Below are positions 14,778-27,401 of a stretch of 53,159 nt of DNA, piece by piece (the first letter of the stretch is position 1; every line of letters begins with the position of its first letter). Source of the stretch: an uncultured Bacteroidota bacterium (lineage in GTDB: Bacteria; Bacteroidota; Bacteroidia; Chitinophagales; LD1); NCBI GenBank assembly GCA_903861145.1, contig CAIOTH010000140.1, positions 1 through 53,159 of the forward strand. Direction: 5' to 3'. Made by a program: the position numbers and the translations under genes. Below the pieces are notes generated by a model. That model searched no databases, was not told the DNA's origin, and saw only the letters and a program-made list of their open reading frames with translations.

Positions 14778-16697
14778 CTAAGGAGTTTTCTTAATTAAGC
14801 CGGTGGCGTTCCAAACAAATACAAGCACCACGATAACTGCAGCCTGGGCAAGGCAGGTTTCGATGGTAGGGAAAAGGCCAATGAGTTCAAGCCGCATTAC
14901 ATGCAGGCCATGGATTGGGGCATAGCCGGTTTCCTGCAATGAATGAATGCCCTTTCCGGCTAATACTACCGCCAAAAGGCTCATTACAGCTGAAGAAACT
15001 TTAAAAAGCTGAGGAATAGGCAGTTTTGCCGAAAACCTAAGTAGAATAATGGCTAATACTATCACTATTACGAAGGCAATTACAACCCCCAGCACAATGG
15101 CGTTGCTTTGCTTACCTGCCGCCTCGATGTTGAGTGCGGAAAGAAACAGTACAGATTCAAAAACTTCGCGGAACACAACGAAGAAGGAAAGGCCGGCCAG
15201 GCCAATCATGCTTTCGCTTTTAACGGCACCTTTCATTTTAGTGGTTACGTAGTCTTTCCACTTGCCAATTTCGCTTTTACCATGTAGCCAAAAGCCCACA
15301 TATAACAACATAAACACGGCGAAGATGGAGATAACGCCCTCCATCAATTCCATGTGCTCAACCTGATTGCTGATAATATGGCCGCTTACCATCCAAATAA
15401 CAGAGCCTGCTAATATGGCCAGTACCCACCCGGCATGAACCCAGGCTGCTGCGTTTTTAAGTTCGGCGGCTTTGAGGACGGAAAGAATAACCATGATAAC
15501 CAGAAATGCCTCTAAGCCCTCGCGCAACAGAATGGACATAGCCATGAGTAAAGCAAGAATGAACGAGTACTCCTTTTTATCAATCAACTTACTTGCAATA
15601 ACGATTGATTTTTTAGCCGATATTAATGAGTCGTGCACTTCGATAGCTGGCTGATGTTGCTCCATCATATGGCTTAAGTGGTGCATTTGCTCTTCCAACG
15701 AACTCATCAGTTGAGGGTCGTTTGATTTTAACTGCATCTCCAGCGGTTCAATGCCTTCGAGATAAGCAAGTGTTGAAAGTTGGGCGGCCTCGGTAAACTT
15801 GCCCTGGTTATATAGGTCCATGGCACCATCGAGATATTTGATGGCCGTTGTTATAAAGTCGCTACTGTGGTGTATTGGTTGGTTTAAACGAATGGCCGCA
15901 AGCAACAAACGGGCCTTCGCACTATCAGTAACATTATACTGCTTTAAGAACTCGACATCAGAAGTAGTAGACACTTTCTCCACTGAAAGCGAATCAAGCA
16001 AATTTCTCGTTCCTTCCTCTTTAAAACGAGGGTCGTTTTTGTATTCCTGATAACGTAGCGACAGCACGTAAAAAGCCACATCCCATACCTGGTTATCATC
16101 TAAAGTGGGGTGGGCTTTCATGCCGGTACCTTCAACCCCTAACCTTACGGTATTAAAGACAAAAAATGCCGAAAGCGGCCTTATCTTTTCGTCATCCTGC
16201 AAATTGCGGGGAGGAGGGTTTAATCCTTTGCCTTCGGGGCCATTGCCAATGCCGTTTGCGCCATGGCATTTTACACATTCGGTTTTATATACAATTTTAC
16301 CATTGGCCAAACTGGGATATACCGAAGGTGTAATTTTGAGGCCGGAAGCGGTTATTACCTTATCTCTTATTTGAATAGCCAGAGGTGACACTACTTCAAA
16401 AGGTGCATTTTGTTGGATAAGGCTATCTAAGTGATAAACCATGGCACTTATAGTGATAGAATCCACTTGACTCCATGTGGGGGCAATTTCTTTAAGGTCG
16501 CGGATAGTGGACTGGCCAAAATCCTTCATTTCTTTAAACTCGCTTTGGCTGATAACTTTGCCGTCTTTAACAGCGCCGGCGTAATCCTGGCTTAAATAGT
16601 TGAGGGTGTGGACTAAAACCCGGGACGATTCGCCGCTATCGGCGGTACATAATTGGCTTGCTATAAGCAGAATAAGAGCTGAGAAAAAGCGTTTCAC
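14778..16697 (-). CDS. Cytochrome c-FTR1 iron permease fusion
   Basis: Product of 639 residues starting at GTG (no other start precedes the signal peptide MKRFFSALILL). Residues about 22-125 are a helical extracytoplasmic domain; 125-220 a mono-heme cytochrome c domain with CVKCH at 141-145 and a probable axial Met at 193 (GTGMKAHP); 240-370 another helical region with LEGIEPLE; 380-639 the FTR1/EfeU-type permease with about seven membrane helices and both iron-binding motifs REGLE (392-396) and REVFE (510-514). FTR1 permeases import iron coupled to oxidation of Fe(II); here the heme domain may replace the separate oxidase as electron acceptor (inference). A promoter with an operator-like palindrome lies directly upstream (16724-16754). 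Confidence 0.9.
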   Translation of the reverse strand: MKRFFSALILLIASQLCTADSGESSRVLVHTLNYLSQDYAGAVKDGKVISQSEFKEMKDFGQSTIRDLKEIAPTWSQVDSITISAMVYHLDSLIQQNAPFEVVSPLAIQIRDKVITASGLKITPSVYPSLANGKIVYKTECVKCHGANGIGNGPEGKGLNPPPRNLQDDEKIRPLSAFFVFNTVRLGVEGTGMKAHPTLDDNQVWDVAFYVLSLRYQEYKNDPRFKEEGTRNLLDSLSVEKVSTTSDVEFLKQYNVTDSAKARLLLAAIRLNQPIHHSSDFITTAIKYLDGAMDLYNQGKFTEAAQLSTLAYLEGIEPLEMQLKSNDPQLMSSLEEQMHHLSHMMEQHQPAIEVHDSLISAKKSIVIASKLIDKKEYSFILALLMAMSILLREGLEAFLVIMVILSVLKAAELKNAAAWVHAGWVLAILAGSVIWMVSGHIISNQVEHMELMEGVISIFAVFMLLYVGFWLHGKSEIGKWKDYVTTKMKGAVKSESMIGLAGLSFFVVFREVFESVLFLSALNIEAAGKQSNAIVLGVVIAFVIVIVLAIILLRFSAKLPIPQLFKVSSAVMSLLAVVLAGKGIHSLQETGYAPIHGLHVMRLELIGLFPTIETCLAQAAVIVVLVFVWNATGLIKKTP

Positions 16698-16811: not shown

Positions 16812-17942
16812 TTATTTCGGCCCAAAGTTGTTTTTAGAGAATACCATCCTCTCTATTTCGCTATCGTAAATTGGCCCGAGAGCAAGCCAATCATACCTTT
16901 CAGCGTATTGCCGGGTATTCATTACCCTGAGGTATTTTACATCCATAATGCGGTGCTGAATTTTATTCACAAGGTCATTTTCCTCATAAAAAAACGTGCT
17001 GTGAAACTGGTTGGGTATGTGTTCGGGATAGGCAAGCCTTTGGGGCAGTAGCGGAACGACATTGCAATACAAGGCTTCTATAACACTTGAGCCAAAAAAA
17101 TCCTGGTTAGATGTTACTGGCAGCAAATCGGCCATCCAAAGCCATTTCGCGTAATCTTCAAAGCTTTGGGCATAACCAAAGTGGATGATGTTTTCTGCAA
17201 GCCGCACTTTAGCCTCGTCAAAAATGGGCGGGCGATTGTCGTAATTCTCGCCTAAAACAATCAGTTTAAAATCAATGCCCCTATCAGCAATTTCGAAAAG
17301 CGCCTGAAAGAAACGCTCGGGGTTTTTATCGTATTCCCACCGGTGGTTCCATAAAATAACAGCGCGTTTGTGTTCGCCCCATTTTGCCGGCTTGTGGGCA
17401 TCGAATTTTTGAAGGTTTAAACCCAAAGGCAACACACTGCTTTTATGCGTGATTGTTTGCACTGTTCCCAAATTCTGATGGTCGGGAAAGGCTTTGAGGA
17501 ATTTAGGTAGTTCGCTTAGGAATGCCCGTTGGTGATACGCCGAGTTGAAGAAAACATGGTCAGCCGCCAATGCAGATGTATAATTGATAAAGGCATAGTG
17601 GTTATCGCGCTTTAACCTCACATCAGCATCAGTACTCGACCAGGGATAATTGAGTTGATTTTCGTGAAAGTAAATGGCTGTTGGAATATTATGCGACCAT
17701 GACCTTGCGAGCGATAAGAACAGATTTAAATCAATCATATCGGTGGCTAAAATCAAATCGGGCTTTTGTAACTCGGGGATTACAAGTTGAGCAAGGCTGA
17801 TAGCACCACCATGCATACGCCATTTCCAATGGCTACCACTAAGACTTAAAATTTCTATTTCGTGCTTACTGAACTGTTTATATTCCTCCGCCCATTTTTT
17901 ATGAGAGCCGCTATAGAATGGTTCGAGGAGAAGGATTTTCAT
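16812..17942 (-). CDS. tRNA-queuosine mannosyltransferase (GTDC1/QTMAN)-like glycosyltransferase
   Basis: Product of 376 residues from the ATG at 17942; an ATG at 17951 would add MYF, but the family begins right at MxILxxExFYxGSH. The N-terminal half matches the DUF3524/QTMAN domain of human GTDC1 segment by segment: EPFYSGSHKKW (7-17), HWKWR (38-42), LNLFLSLA (72-79), IYFHENQLNYP (90-100), ALAADHVFFNSAYH (124-137), KFLKAFPDH (147-155). The C-terminal half is a GT4-type GT-B domain (WNHRWEYDKNPERFF; SSVIEALYCNVVPLLP). Eukaryotic QTMAN mannosylates queuosine in tRNA-Asp; whether bacterial homologues do so is not settled to my knowledge. It follows dihydroorotase by 62 bases on the same strand; no queuosine genes are nearby. 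Confidence 0.8.
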   Translation of the reverse strand: MKILLLEPFYSGSHKKWAEEYKQFSKHEIEILSLSGSHWKWRMHGGAISLAQLVIPELQKPDLILATDMIDLNLFLSLARSWSHNIPTAIYFHENQLNYPWSSTDADVRLKRDNHYAFINYTSALAADHVFFNSAYHQRAFLSELPKFLKAFPDHQNLGTVQTITHKSSVLPLGLNLQKFDAHKPAKWGEHKRAVILWNHRWEYDKNPERFFQALFEIADRGIDFKLIVLGENYDNRPPIFDEAKVRLAENIIHFGYAQSFEDYAKWLWMADLLPVTSNQDFFGSSVIEALYCNVVPLLPQRLAYPEHIPNQFHSTFFYEENDLVNKIQHRIMDVKYLRVMNTRQYAERYDWLALGPIYDSEIERMVFSKNNFGPK

Positions 17943-17951
17943 AAAATACAT

Positions 17952-18004: not shown

Positions 18005-19348
18005 TTAGTTTCTGTCAAACATCAACCTCTCTCCCATTTTTTCTTCGTTGAACTGGCCGTTATCATAAACCAGGTTTCCGTTTACAAAAGTTTGCATTAC
18101 CTGGCCTTTAAATTCGTGGCCTTCCAAAGGGCTCCATCCGCATTTGTAAAGTATGTTCTCTTTATTAACTGCCCAGTGCCTATCGGTATTCAACAAAACC
18201 AGGTCGGCCATATACCCTTCGCGGAGGTAACCGCGTTCTTTAATATCAAAACACTCAGCCGGTTTATGGCACATCTTTTCAATAATCTTCTCTAAAGATA
18301 TTTTGCCCTGGTGATGAAACTCAAGCATCATATTTAAAGAGTGTTGCAACAGGGGCAAGCCTGATGGGGCTTTGTTATACAGGTTATCTTTCTCGGCTAA
18401 AGTATGTGGGGCATGGTCAGTAGCAATAATGTCCAGCCGGTCATCAAGTAAGGCTTCGAACAAAGCTTTCTTATGGTGAGCCTCTTTAATTGCAGGGTTG
18501 CATTTTATTTTGCTGCCTAGTTTTTCGTAATCGTTTTTATCAAACCACAGGTGGTGAACGCAAACTTCGGCGGTGATTCGTTTATCTTTTAAAGGAATAT
18601 CATTTCTAAAAAGCTTCAATTCATCAGCGGTTGAAATATGCAGAATGTGTAGGCGGGTGTTATACTTTTTTGCCAGCTCAACCGCAAGGCTTGAAGAGTT
18701 GAGGCAAACTTCTTCATTTCGTATTTCGGGATGACATTCGAAAGGGATTTTTTCGCCATAGCGCTCCATATACATTTGCAGGCGCTCTTTTACCAGTCTG
18801 TCATCTTCGCAATGGGTTGCAATTAGAATGTCGTTGCGACGGCTAAACACTTTTTCTAAAACCTCGCGGCTATCTACCAACATATCACCAGTTGAGGAGC
18901 CCATAAAAATTTTAATGCCACATACTTTGGTTTTATCAACCTTCAGCAATTCGTCGAAATTGGTGAGGTTGGTGCCCATAAAAAATGAGTAGTTAGCCAA
19001 AGATGTTTTTGAAGCAATAGTGTATTTGTCTTCCAGCAGTTGAATAGTGGTAGCCGGTGGCTGGGTATTGGGCATTTCCATAAATGAGGTAACCCCACCT
19101 GATATGCCCGCTTTAGCCTCTGTATAAATAGTTGCCTTCTGGGTAAGCCCCGGTTCGCGAAAGTGTACCTGGTCATCTATAATTCCAGGCATCAGGTAAT
19201 CACCCTCAGCATCAAGCTCAGTGACTTTAAATTTTACATCAAACTGCGGGTCAATGCGCTCAATCCGATTTCCTTTAACCAATAAATCGGACGTCCGAAT
19301 TTGACCCTCGTTAATAATTTTGGCGTTGCGTATTACGTAATTACCCAT
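18005..19348 (-). CDS. pyrC: Dihydroorotase (class I type)
   Basis: Product of 447 residues, normal for class I dihydroorotase, the zinc amidohydrolase that cyclises carbamoyl-aspartate to dihydroorotate in pyrimidine synthesis. Landmarks: MPGIIDDQVHFREPG (53-67), the probable carboxylated Lys in CGIKIFMGSSTG (near 146-157), metal His in ATHCEDD and LHILHIST, and the catalytic Asp in IATDHAPHT. The first His of the usual HxH metal motif is Gln (DQVHFRE); I recall the same in other Bacteroidota dihydroorotases, so it is probably lineage-typical and not a sign of inactivity. No other pyr genes adjoin. Its -7 box appears to be at 19365-19372. Confidence 0.88.
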   Translation of the reverse strand: MGNYVIRNAKIINEGQIRTSDLLVKGNRIERIDPQFDVKFKVTELDAEGDYLMPGIIDDQVHFREPGLTQKATIYTEAKAGISGGVTSFMEMPNTQPPATTIQLLEDKYTIASKTSLANYSFFMGTNLTNFDELLKVDKTKVCGIKIFMGSSTGDMLVDSREVLEKVFSRRNDILIATHCEDDRLVKERLQMYMERYGEKIPFECHPEIRNEEVCLNSSSLAVELAKKYNTRLHILHISTADELKLFRNDIPLKDKRITAEVCVHHLWFDKNDYEKLGSKIKCNPAIKEAHHKKALFEALLDDRLDIIATDHAPHTLAEKDNLYNKAPSGLPLLQHSLNMMLEFHHQGKISLEKIIEKMCHKPAECFDIKERGYLREGYMADLVLLNTDRHWAVNKENILYKCGWSPLEGHEFKGQVMQTFVNGNLVYDNGQFNEEKMGERLMFDRN

Positions 19349-19950: not shown

Positions 19951-20067
19951 CTTATGTTAGAAAAACAACCTCCGCTTTTTCGGTAAAGCCCTCTAATTCA
20001 TCGGCAGGCAAGTCTGCATAAGGAGTTATACCTTGTACCTGTGGGTATTAACAATCAGTTTATTATC

Positions 20068-20075
20068 TATTTTTG
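20068..20075 (+). promoter_or_regulatory. -7 box of the PNGase F-like gene
   Basis: TATTTTTG then CGCC, a perfect TAnnTTTG, 34 bases before the ATG at 20110. It shows that the in-frame GTG at 20041 lies upstream of the transcript and cannot be the start. Confidence 0.6.
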
Positions 20076-20109
20076 CGCCACATCCGTCTTTAGAAAAAAT
20101 CAACTTAAA

Positions 20110-22320
20110 ATGAAGAAATACATTTACCTCATAGCCGTTTTGTGCGTTTTTAGTTTTGCCCACGTTAATGGTGCTGTTGGCGATACCACCTGGGTGCAAT
20201 CATTTCATGGCGATTTTACTAATTATGGCGCATTTGACACTGCTGTTGTTTTTCCGGATAGTTCGACCTCTTACCGTAAAATTTACATGATTATCACTAT
20301 TGGCGAATATACCTGTACTGCGGGCTCGCAATATTGCCATCAATGGGATTATGATATTGAAAATTATGTAATGACCCCGCGTGGAGATACTTTGGAAATT
20401 GGCCGCTTTATTACCCCGTATGCCACTTCGGGTACACCTGGCTTTACCTCAACCTGGCAGCAGCATTATATTTACGACGTAACCGATTATTATAAGATAC
20501 TGAGAGATTCGGCCTTAATGCGTATTTTCTATTCAGGCTATTCGTGGGGTTTTACCGGTGATGTGAAATTTGCGTTTATTGAGGGAACACCCGAGCGCAA
20601 TGTTATAGGTTACGATAAGCTTTGGAATAATACCTATACATATGGTAACACTGCCAGTGTTATTGATAGCAGTGTTAAACCATATACCCTTACAGCACCA
20701 AGCGGCACTCAATCGGCCGAAATGAAATTTTTGATAACCGGGCACGGTTCAGATAACACTTCGGGATGTTGCGAGTTTGACAATACCGGGGTTGGCCATA
20801 CTTACACGGTTTTGGCTAATAACAATACGGTAGCCAGCTATAATATGAATGTGAACTGCGGCATGAGCGAATTATATCCACAAGGAGGTACGTGGTTATA
20901 TGGCAGGGCAGGTAACTGGTGCCCGGGTGGTTCGGTGCAATTGGGGCAATATCCTTTAACGGGTGTAACCGGTGGTAGCCAATATACTACCGACGTTAAT
21001 TTTGATGATAGTTACGATGGTGGTGGTGCTTACGGTATTTATAAAATAGCGAGCGCTGTATTTTATTATGGTGGTTTAAATAAAACACTAGATGCATCGC
21101 TTGATGATATTATTGCGCCTACCAATTTTGAATGGTACCGCCGGGAAAACCCACGTGTAAGCGTACCGGTAATAAAAGTGCGCAATACCGGTGCTACTAC
21201 TATTACCTCAATGCTTATATCTTATGGGGTAAAAGACTCGGTTGCAACTGAGTACATCTGGACCGGTTCACTTGCTCCATTAACAGATACTACAATTACT
21301 TTACCGGCTATACCGGCGCTTACAAATTTATCGTTAAACGCAGTTACCGGTACACATACTTTTAAGGCTGAAATACAGCAGGTAAACGGTTTGGCTGACG
21401 ATGACCACAGTAACGATACGCTGACATCGCAGTTTTTAGTTGCACCTAAATGGCCTTATTCATTCCTTATTAAACTGAAGACAAGTTCGATAGGCGCTGA
21501 CGGTAGTTTTGGAACCAGCCCTGCCGATGCAAGCTGGCAAATTACCGATGCCAATAATAATGTTGTGGCTTCGCGCAGCAATGCTAATGTTACTACCACT
21601 TATTTTGATACAGTGACACTACACTCGGGCAGCTTTTATACGTTATCGGTTAGTACCTCACAGTGCTATGGTTTAAACTGGTGGGCACTTGCCGGGCAAA
21701 CGGGATATACATCGGGCTCTATTGGTGTAGTAAATTATATGGGTGGCGGCGCGCTTTTGAATCTTAACGGCACTTCAAATTCTGGGCAGTTTTTAGATGA
21801 TTTTGGTTGCGGTTTTGTGCAGTATTTTACTACACTTGGCCAGTGCCACCAACCTACACCTGTAATAACAAGAACCGGTGACACTTTAACCGCATCAGCG
21901 GGTGTAACCTATCAATGGTATAAAGATGGCAATCCTATTAACGGAGCTACTAACCGAATTTATACCGCTGGAGTTGTTGACGGTAACTATACCGTTGAAG
22001 TTACCGGTGCAGGCGGCTGTAGCGCTACATCGGCTTCATTACCATTTATGAGCACAGGCACTAATGATTTATCAGTATTAGCGGCAACAGTATCGGTATT
22101 TCCGAACCCTGCCCGCGAATCTTTTAACCTGGTTGTAGGTGCTGAATTAACCGGCACCAACTATGAATTATATGAAATGACCGGCAGGAAGGTTCTGTCA
22201 GGAACAATAGGGGATGAGGTTACTACAATACCTGTGCGTGATATTTCTTCAGGTATATACATTGTTAACATTAGCAATGGCATGGGCAGTATTACGAAGC
22301 GTTTGATAATACAGAAATAG
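20110..22320 (+). CDS. Secreted PNGase F-like peptide-N-glycosidase with T9SS type A tail
   Basis: Product of 736 residues with a signal peptide (MKKYIYLIAVLCVFSFAHVNG). Residues about 24-345 match both beta domains of PNGase F from Elizabethkingia: CHQWDYDIENYV-EIGRFITPY (76-104) against CDEWDRYANVYV-EIGRFITPY, and CCEFDNTGVGHTY (220-232) and RAGNWCPG (266-273) against CAEWCFRTHTI and RAGWCPG. Thus the catalytic Asp60 (Asp80 here) and Glu206 (Glu222) are kept; Arg61 is Tyr and the Glu118 site seems to be in YSGYSWG, without Glu. The enzyme family cuts N-glycans from Asn. Two further beta domains (345-560), an Ig-like domain (about 590-655) and a Por secretion tail (VSVFPNPARESFNL to the end) follow. 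Confidence 0.8.
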   Translation: MKKYIYLIAVLCVFSFAHVNGAVGDTTWVQSFHGDFTNYGAFDTAVVFPDSSTSYRKIYMIITIGEYTCTAGSQYCHQWDYDIENYVMTPRGDTLEIGRFITPYATSGTPGFTSTWQQHYIYDVTDYYKILRDSALMRIFYSGYSWGFTGDVKFAFIEGTPERNVIGYDKLWNNTYTYGNTASVIDSSVKPYTLTAPSGTQSAEMKFLITGHGSDNTSGCCEFDNTGVGHTYTVLANNNTVASYNMNVNCGMSELYPQGGTWLYGRAGNWCPGGSVQLGQYPLTGVTGGSQYTTDVNFDDSYDGGGAYGIYKIASAVFYYGGLNKTLDASLDDIIAPTNFEWYRRENPRVSVPVIKVRNTGATTITSMLISYGVKDSVATEYIWTGSLAPLTDTTITLPAIPALTNLSLNAVTGTHTFKAEIQQVNGLADDDHSNDTLTSQFLVAPKWPYSFLIKLKTSSIGADGSFGTSPADASWQITDANNNVVASRSNANVTTTYFDTVTLHSGSFYTLSVSTSQCYGLNWWALAGQTGYTSGSIGVVNYMGGGALLNLNGTSNSGQFLDDFGCGFVQYFTTLGQCHQPTPVITRTGDTLTASAGVTYQWYKDGNPINGATNRIYTAGVVDGNYTVEVTGAGGCSATSASLPFMSTGTNDLSVLAATVSVFPNPARESFNLVVGAELTGTNYELYEMTGRKVLSGTIGDEVTTIPVRDISSGIYIVNISNGMGSITKRLIIQK

Positions 22321-26384: not shown

Positions 26385-27401
26385 CTAAGCAGCTTTTCTT
26401 TGGCGACGTGGAGTGTGAGGCGCATGCAGTATGGCTTCAACTATTTTTTCCAAATCATCTTCAAATTTTATTTGCACCGTATTAGGATTATCGAGCCAAA
26501 CTTTTATTTCTACGGCATCTAACTCGGTAGATGTTTTAACGCCCATGCCTGCTAATATTTTAGCATTGCAAATTTGCTCGCTTTGCTTTTTTAGAGGGAT
26601 AACAAAAAGCTTTTTACCCAAATACAATGCTTCGGATATAGTTTGGAAGCCACCGGCAGTTATTACACCCGAACAGTTTGCCATATCCAGGATAAACGAG
26701 TTGTTATTTAACGGCTTTATTTCGCAATTATTTAAGGCATAACTCTTTTCGGATGTTTTTGAGTAAATAATGAACTTATGATTAGCGAATTGCGGTTTTG
26801 AGAAACACTGCATCAATTCCTCATCGGTAAATGAGTTGAGGTATACAAGCGTGAAATTTTTATCGCCCGGTATAGCGTTTCGTATTTCGTTACGTATAAC
26901 GGGGTAATAAACAAAGTCATCGTATTTTTTAAAGTGCATGGCAATTTTATTGCGTGCCGGGCACATAACGTTTGCGAAAAATTTATTGGCAAAGTTGCCC
27001 TTGGTTTTAGGGAAATTATGTGACGTAACAGCATACATGTTTCCAATACCCACGCGTTTAACCCCGGCCAACATAGCACCCCATAAAGTAATAGGCTCAA
27101 AGTCGGAAATAATTAAGTCGTATTTTTTAAAAGGTACTTTCATCAATGCAATCATTACCGATAAAAAACTGGCTTTGCCAATGGATTTAAGCACGGAAAT
27201 TTTGCCCTTTTTGCCGTAATAAAAGCTAAACCCCTTGTACTCGTAATTTACTTCGAACGGAAGGCCTATTTGCGCCTTGCCGCCGCTTATAAGCACATCC
27301 AGTTGCTCTACATCCGGATGTTGCTTTAACAGCTTGTAAATCTCGGTTGAGCGGCTAATGTGCCCGTTACCTGTTGCCTGAATTCCAAATAGAATTTTCA
27401 T
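26385..27401 (-). CDS. GT-B glycosyltransferase, MurG-like family
   Basis: Product of 338 residues. The N-terminus MKILFGIQATGNGHISRS is the glycine-rich entry of GT-B enzymes of the MurG/GT28-like kind (Glyco_trans_1_3 type). The acceptor half has DLIISDFEPITLWGAMLAGVKRVGIGN; the donor half has CSGVITAGGFQTISEALYLGKKLFVIPLKKQSEQICNAKILAGMG, the GT28 nucleotide-sugar site in which GGFQTISEAL replaces the usual GGxxSxxE. No membrane helix. The tail (RRQRKAA) is basic, suiting peripheral membrane attachment. Donor and acceptor cannot be read. It follows the LpxH-like gene by 130 bases on the same strand, so a lipid or envelope glycan is the likely target (inference). Confidence 0.8.
   Translation of the reverse strand: MKILFGIQATGNGHISRSTEIYKLLKQHPDVEQLDVLISGGKAQIGLPFEVNYEYKGFSFYYGKKGKISVLKSIGKASFLSVMIALMKVPFKKYDLIISDFEPITLWGAMLAGVKRVGIGNMYAVTSHNFPKTKGNFANKFFANVMCPARNKIAMHFKKYDDFVYYPVIRNEIRNAIPGDKNFTLVYLNSFTDEELMQCFSKPQFANHKFIIYSKTSEKSYALNNCEIKPLNNNSFILDMANCSGVITAGGFQTISEALYLGKKLFVIPLKKQSEQICNAKILAGMGVKTSTELDAVEIKVWLDNPNTVQIKFEDDLEKIVEAILHAPHTPRRQRKAA

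Follow-up and report, generated by a model that had tools for sequence, protein, structure and literature searches.

A QTMAN-family glycosyltransferase gene in a Bacteroidota bacterium and the plausible glycosylation of queuosine in bacteria

In this study, we examine a gene for a putative tRNA-modifying glycosyltransferase on a 53,159-nucleotide stretch of DNA (the window) from an uncultured Bacteroidota bacterium, beginning with the locus and the protein family, and then considering the distribution of its relatives, their association with queuosine (Q) genes and the functions that could explain them. The open reading frame occupies positions 16812..17951 of the minus strand and encodes 379 amino acids; residue numbers follow this frame throughout. 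An in-frame ATG at 17942 (MKILLLEP...) lies three codons downstream of the upper end of the frame and is probably the true start, because most aligned relatives begin close to it, which would give a protein of 376 amino acids. The N-terminal half is a QTMAN_N domain (PF12038; residues 5-178, 17418..17939, minus strand), presumably the acceptor side, followed by a GT4 catalytic domain (PF00534, Glycos_transf_1; residues 189-333, 16953..17387, minus strand), presumably the nucleotide-sugar side. The dihydroorotase gene pyrC (18005..19348, minus strand; NF006688, 695 bits against a cut-off of 535) lies 53 bases upstream on the same strand, just where the preliminary description of this DNA had placed it, and is not part of the function proposed below. 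Further features of the window include an Ftr1/EfeU-type iron permease gene (14781-16697; 116.9 bits, cut-off 303.8), whose N-terminal region has a weak cytochrome-like match, and a gene (20041-22317) whose product carries a PNGase F C-terminal domain and is predicted to be secreted by the type IX system; no tRNA genes were found in the window.

The homology to the animal enzyme GTDC1/QTMAN proposed in the preliminary description is borne out by profile searches, which confirm the gene product as a full-length QTMAN-family protein. QTMAN_N is the top profile, matching over its entire length (profile positions 1-168 of 168) with 199.9 bits and an E-value of 3.3e-59 (Pfam cut-off 25), and the C-terminal GT4 domain scores 40.7 bits against a cut-off of 26.4; a chance motif match was rejected on the strength of the QTMAN_N score across the whole profile. 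In a profile search of the whole source genome (4.7 Mb, 98.65% complete), the window gene scored 202.1 bits and was the only QTMAN_N copy, one of four first-look candidates having passed. None of 14 control genomes, E. coli among them, matched the profile, and the second glycosyltransferase of the window (26388-27401, PF13528) gave no QTMAN_N match at E 1e-8, a small specificity control. No other GT4 family emerged as the better assignment, since NCBIfam GT4 equivalogs reached 13-24 bits against cut-offs of 274-550. Membership of HpsP (24.2 bits, cut-off 550), EpsE (22.3 bits, cut-off 400) and BshA (20.9 bits, cut-off 273.7) was rejected on these grounds, and the GlcN-PG synthase equivalog scored 13 bits against a cut-off of 480. 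The further claim that every N-terminal block of the human protein is present proved slightly too strong. Of the five blocks that it attributes to human GTDC1, four are exact (LEPFYSGSHK for xExFYxGSHK, YFHENQLNYP for YFHENQLxYP, FNSAYHQRAF for FNSxxxxxxF and KFLKAFPDH for KFxKxxPDH), whereas HWRxR is only half matched by KWRMH, in which W44 and R45 agree.

An AlphaFold2 model built from an alignment of 114 bacterial members has a mean pLDDT of 95.1 and a pTM of 0.93, and the GT-B/GT4 fold of the window protein can be regarded as a confident prediction. The structural neighbours of the model across the whole chain (Foldseek, VIA-align) are retaining GT4 enzymes with the GT-B fold, namely sucrose-phosphate synthase (6kih, Z 31.3), MshA (3c4q, Z 30.0), the methylmannose polysaccharide mannosyltransferase (7qsg, Z 29.5), PimB' with GDP-Man (3oka, Z 26.4) and PimA (2gej, Z 24.6), at sequence identities of 14-15%. 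Likeness to PimA, PimB', MshA, BshA and sucrose-phosphate synthase extends over the entire GT-B fold (Z 24.6-31.3), at a sequence identity of 14-16%. These enzymes act on lipid or small-molecule acceptors. Both UDP-sugar and GDP-sugar enzymes match the model, so that the donor cannot be read from the predicted fold, which by itself does not reveal the acceptor either. A sequence search of the PDB returned three weak GT4 matches only (E 0.12 or worse), and no entry named QTMAN appears among the structural matches listed.

Sixteen columns are invariant in all 114 rows of the alignment: S16, W44, R45, P103, L152, W201, R204, W205, D208, P211, F214, G234, Y267, P303, L306 and W355. Several of these fall in recognizable motifs of the minus-strand frame, including a GSHK loop (residues 15-18, 17898..17909; S16 114/114, H17 110/114), a WKWRM motif (residues 42-46, 17814..17828; W44 and R45 114/114) and the HENQLNYP motif (residues 96-103, 17643..17666; H96 and N98 113/114, P103 114/114). 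In the C-terminal half, the RWEYDK segment (residues 204-209, 17325..17342; R204, W205 and D208 114/114, K209 111/114) contributes R204 and K209, which by analogy with GT4 enzymology may be the basic pair that binds the diphosphate of the donor. The GT4 EX7E motif is present in its D form as D284-x7-E292 (17076..17102, minus strand, by alignment column counts).

Relatives of the window protein are widespread in bacteria and span many phyla. In an even draw of 296 genomes from the window's own phylum, Bacteroidota, QTMAN_N occurs in 78, with a single copy in 63 carriers and two copies in 15, all of the latter belonging to one Balneola-like family (f24). A pattern scan of named genomes yielded at least 568 confirmed relatives, of which 80 were kept; those with a taxon label are assigned to Bacteroidota, Balneola, Desulfuromonadales, Myxococcota, Fidelibacterota (Marinimicrobia), KSB1, Calditrichota, Chloroflexota, Verrucomicrobiota, Planctomycetota and Krumholzibacteriota. 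Viral contigs gave 22 pattern matches and no relatives. A tree of 117 rows divides into two separate sets with support of 100, which we term type I (83 rows) and type II (34 rows). The window protein belongs to type I, within a four-row clade (support 100) whose nearest member, L052, is 73% identical; no characterized type I protein was encountered among the literature matches listed. Type I otherwise includes Chitinophagales, Saprospirales, Balneola-like bacteria, Desulfuromonadales, Fidelibacterota and others, with Geomonas and Phaeodactylibacter as examples that can be cultivated.

Type II proteins have the same domains on a separate branch. They are 34-43% identical to the window protein, lack a five-residue insertion after HENQxxYP, and come without exception from genomes outside the window's own class, namely from the order of genome G147 and from Balneola-like relatives. 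The f24 genomes (L042-L047) carry one copy of each type where both were placed, the second scoring about 40-55 bits lower. The types also differ within the EX7E motif. Type II has E at both positions 284 and 292 in 31/31 rows. Among the 83 type I rows, position 284 carries D in 71 and E in 12, and position 292 carries E in 66, Q in 16 and G in one.

The name QTMAN, as applied to these bacterial proteins, rests on the animal enzyme. QTMAN and QTGAL were reportedly named in a 2023 paper. They are the animal enzymes of manQ and galQ, QTMAN attaching mannose in alpha linkage to the allylic 3-hydroxyl of tRNA-Asp Q (PMC12518689). The structure of manQ has been determined (PMC8654956), manQ in insects and mammals is treated in two papers (PMC11705514, PMC10639084), and a rat-liver enzyme is reported to use GDP-mannose. 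The animal tRNA-Asp queuosine alpha-mannosyltransferase shares with the window protein a whole-length QTMAN_N domain followed by a GT4 domain; the window's host, in contrast, is a bacterium with genes for making Q, and the activity of its protein is putative. In bacteria, the enzyme described as modifying the cyclopentene of tRNA-Asp Q34 is glutamyl-Q tRNA-Asp synthetase, GluQRS (PMC4425180, a review). GluQRS, a paralogue of glutamyl-tRNA synthetase, adds glutamate instead, and the two enzymes would compete for the same base. The same review states that sugar-modified queuosine is not made by bacteria, and a second excludes ManQ and GalQ from its bacterial domain assignment (PMC7694415). Among the literature matches listed, in a search that most subscription papers lay outside, there was no report of a bacterial QTMAN or of manQ in bacteria, and none of the papers using the word QTMAN concerned bacteria, judged by title and abstract.

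If QTMAN acts on queuosine, its genomes should contain Q, and the gene content of the source genome leads us to expect Q in the cell, as in the setting of the animal enzyme. The genes for Q synthesis or salvage named in the preliminary description are present, with tgt at 489.2 bits and queG at 340.5 bits, as is queA at 398.6 bits (canonical copy at L169:6944-7990); QueH had no match in this genome. Across 51 genomes with a type I QTMAN (the source genome and 50 of those of the 80 listed relatives), tgt exceeds its cut-off in 48, the type being assigned by the tree or, for seven outside the tree, by identity to the window protein (L054, L058, L063, L114, L123, L126 and L131, at 49-71%, against 34-43% for type II). 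The three type I genomes without tgt still match QueH (G309, 246.8 bits; G312, 206.7 bits) or a fragment of QueG (G317, 65.6 bits, below the cut-off), so that none of the type I genomes tested lacks Q genes altogether. When the source genome and 79 others with QTMAN are taken together, many of them metagenome-assembled genomes whose completeness is not given, QueG or QueH is over the cut-off in 70 of 80, with QueG in 52, QueH in 18 and never both; neither is over the cut-off in ten (G303, G304, G313, G316, G317, G318, G345, G353, G355 and G358), among which G304 misses narrowly (183.3 bits, cut-off 200). Outside Bacteroidota, all such counts refer to QTMAN-bearing genomes only. Within the Bacteroidota sample, tgt is over its cut-off in 290/296 genomes and has some match in 291/296, whether QTMAN is present or absent; because tgt is near universal there, co-occurrence in this phylum has no power to test a link between QTMAN and Q.

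Gene neighbourhoods differ between lineages. Among the four nearest loci, pyrC is again upstream and co-oriented in L052 and L055 and was not found in L053, while L054 stops at a contig end, and the adjacency to pyrC carries no functional weight. An FTR1-type gene is found downstream of QTMAN in the window, L053 and L054, and an alpha/beta hydrolase gene directly downstream in 14 loci, mostly of Saprospirales. Within the Fidelibacterota clade, seven of ten rows (L062, L071, L099, L105, L118, L125 and L129) have smpB-tyrS nearby on the opposite strand, with tyrS confirmed by profile in two loci; since tRNA-Tyr is a Q-tRNA this is suggestive, and only that. Searches at E 1e-15 of the open reading frames of L032-L131 and of window positions 3001-32000 (flanks of up to 10 kb, shorter at contig ends) found no tgt, queA, queG or queH near QTMAN, and no glycan-biosynthesis genes appear among the ten conserved neighbours that were annotated.

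The relationship between QTMAN and Q can be followed further where tgt has been lost. Three of the five Bacteroidota genomes without a tgt match carry QTMAN; all three (G147, G195 and G199) belong to one genus, g97, possibly Salinibacter-like, and carry type II. They retain a canonical QueA and have no match to QueG. In the order containing g97, TGT is found in 53/60 genomes and QTMAN in 58/60, including all seven without TGT. Among 13 genomes of the genus itself, a true TGT is present in two (G393 and G411) and missing in 11, the two weak TGT matches of G407 being DpdA, one of them beside DpdB. To gauge the integrity of the protein we used 19 near-invariant columns, each at least 99% conserved across 140 reference QTMANs; 134 references show no change at these columns, six show one and none shows two. 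Both TGT-positive g97 genomes have a QTMAN with no change. Of the 11 TGT-negative genomes, six have a QTMAN that is missing, broken or stripped of near-invariant residues: it was not found in G408 (83% complete) and G413 (93% complete), G195 has one stop and one frameshift, G199 has N202T and D208N, and G397 and its close relative G407 have S16T, P103L and D208A. In the remaining five (G147, G406, G409, G412 and the 62% complete G410), the protein looks intact, with no change at the 19 columns. At 46 columns conserved to 97%, these five show two changes each and the two TGT-positive proteins none, the references being distributed as 83 with none, 34 with one, 19 with two and four with more. 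QTMAN lesions therefore cluster where tgt is missing, in genomes that share ancestry. An advance prediction for the genus was borne out in G407, G408, G413 and G411; in G410, in whose incomplete genome no tgt was found, it either failed or stays undecided.

Substitution rates do not simply mirror this decay. Six TGT-negative pairs give QTMAN dN/dS values of 0.074-0.136. These fall among the values of the flanking open reading frames in the same pairs, some of which frames may not be genes, and therefore argue against a general relaxation of QTMAN after tgt loss; if tgt was lost once in g97, QTMAN has been under selection since. The very close pair G397-G407 gives 0.206, the two pieces of the G195 gene give 0.133 and 0.230 against G147, and the TGT-positive pair gives 0.046. 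A reading of the lesions in G195, G199 and G397 as a clean natural experiment is not supported by dN/dS, and they stand as mixed evidence. QueA of G147, G195 and G199 is under strong purifying selection (dN/dS 0.014-0.083), with two segments rewritten: APTAGLHFT-type to APKSTLHFT, and GLGTF to GRGKS or GRNKS. Leftover QueA and QTMAN in tgt-less g97 genomes may have taken on a new substrate, a suggestion that concerns type II and not the window's type I. Because QTMAN has decayed in some tgt-less g97 genomes and is kept in others, its dependence on Q is likely but unproven.

The window protein would, on the reading we favor, be a cytosolic retaining glycosyltransferase of the GT-B (GT4) type. 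Its C-terminal half would bind a nucleotide sugar, most likely GDP-mannose, and its N-terminal QTMAN domain would recognize the anticodon-loop nucleoside Q34 of a queuosine tRNA, with tRNA-Asp the likeliest. The sugar would then be transferred to a hydroxyl of the cyclopentenediol (in animals it is the allylic one) to yield mannosyl-queuosine or a close hexosyl-Q. The analysis establishes membership of the family, a predicted fold, the conservation of active-site residues and the occurrence of tgt, queA and queG in the genome; cellular location, donor, acceptor, choice of tRNA and regiochemistry are inferred from these. That the protein acts on queuosine in some way is probable, and we lean slightly towards its being specifically a retaining mannosyltransferase of Q34, with the GDP-mannose enzymes PimB' and PimA among the GT4 structural matches counted in its favor. 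Counted against it are the QTMAN genes that look intact and under purifying selection in tgt-less g97 genomes, the ten QTMAN genomes with neither QueG nor QueH over the cut-off, and the lack of Q genes in the neighbourhoods examined. Family membership, combined with Q genes in the same genome, suggests that bacteria may make sugar-modified queuosine, and glycosylated queuosine in bacteria is a plausible inference, although genome evidence by itself neither proves nor excludes bacterial mannosyl-queuosine.

Other readings draw on parts of the same evidence. The product might be a hexosyl-Q distinct from manQ, if queuosine is glycosylated with another sugar (glucose, galactose or GlcNAc) or on a different Q-tRNA (Tyr, His or Asn); the ambiguity of the GT4 fold as to donor is compatible with this, as are the D-for-E difference between types at position 284, the replacement of E292 by Q in 16 type I rows, the two-copy f24 genomes, which are what two products would predict, and the position of the gene beside tyrS, the ligase of a Q-tRNA, in Fidelibacterota. 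The full-length QTMAN_N similarity stands against this, and we consider it unlikely for the window protein. About as unlikely is a GT4 enzyme that shares no more than ancestry with animal QTMAN and acts on something other than queuosine, be it a surface glycan, a metabolite or a different RNA base. Purifying selection on type II in g97 genomes without tgt, including three that also lack a QueG match, speaks for such an acceptor, as do the absence of adjoining Q genes and the variable neighbours; it is opposed by the lack of glycan-biosynthesis genes among the annotated neighbours, by the single copy in most carriers, by Q genes in every type I genome tested and by the decay of QTMAN in several TGT-negative g97 genomes. 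It is very improbable that the window gene is a functionless relic or a mis-assembly, for which no supporting point was found and which is contradicted by its open frame, where each of the 16 family-invariant residues is kept, by its confident model and by its close relatives at 68-73% identity.

Should the favored mannosyltransferase reading be correct, the denial of bacterial sugar-modified queuosine in the two reviews (PMC4425180, PMC7694415) would be wrong for many lineages, and the modification would be common to bacteria and animals. The sugar would tune how Asp codons, or those of other Q-tRNAs, are decoded at the wobble position in organisms possibly open to genetics, offering simple systems for learning what manQ is for, and the question would arise whether bacteria choose between glutamyl-Q and mannosyl-Q. 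More tentatively, and with rather less confidence than we attach to the mechanism itself, many bacterial phyla could make hexosyl-Q through QTMAN enzymes, some of them (the Balneola-like bacteria) with two types and perhaps two products, while in tgt-less g97 genomes QTMAN and a QueA with its APTAGLHFT-type segment rewritten could have turned to a non-queuosine substrate.

Several observations on Q-related genes stand apart from these arguments. The source genome holds a second QueA-like gene (L168:5869-7224, G000:C46), which encodes 452 amino acids and scores 304.2 bits for TIGR00113. Intact g97 QueA genes in genomes without a tgt or QueG match lie at L164:6805-7851, L196:7573-8640 and L197:7710-8756. 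G407, which lacks a tRNA TGT, carries two DpdA genes and one DpdB gene of a 7-deazaguanine DNA-modification system (L187:62-2403, L188:964-2472). Finally, 12 genomes, mostly of Desulfuromonadales, have two tgt genes each, both above 500 bits (G303, G304, G308, G311, G314, G316, G318, G319, G324, G325, G343 and G344).
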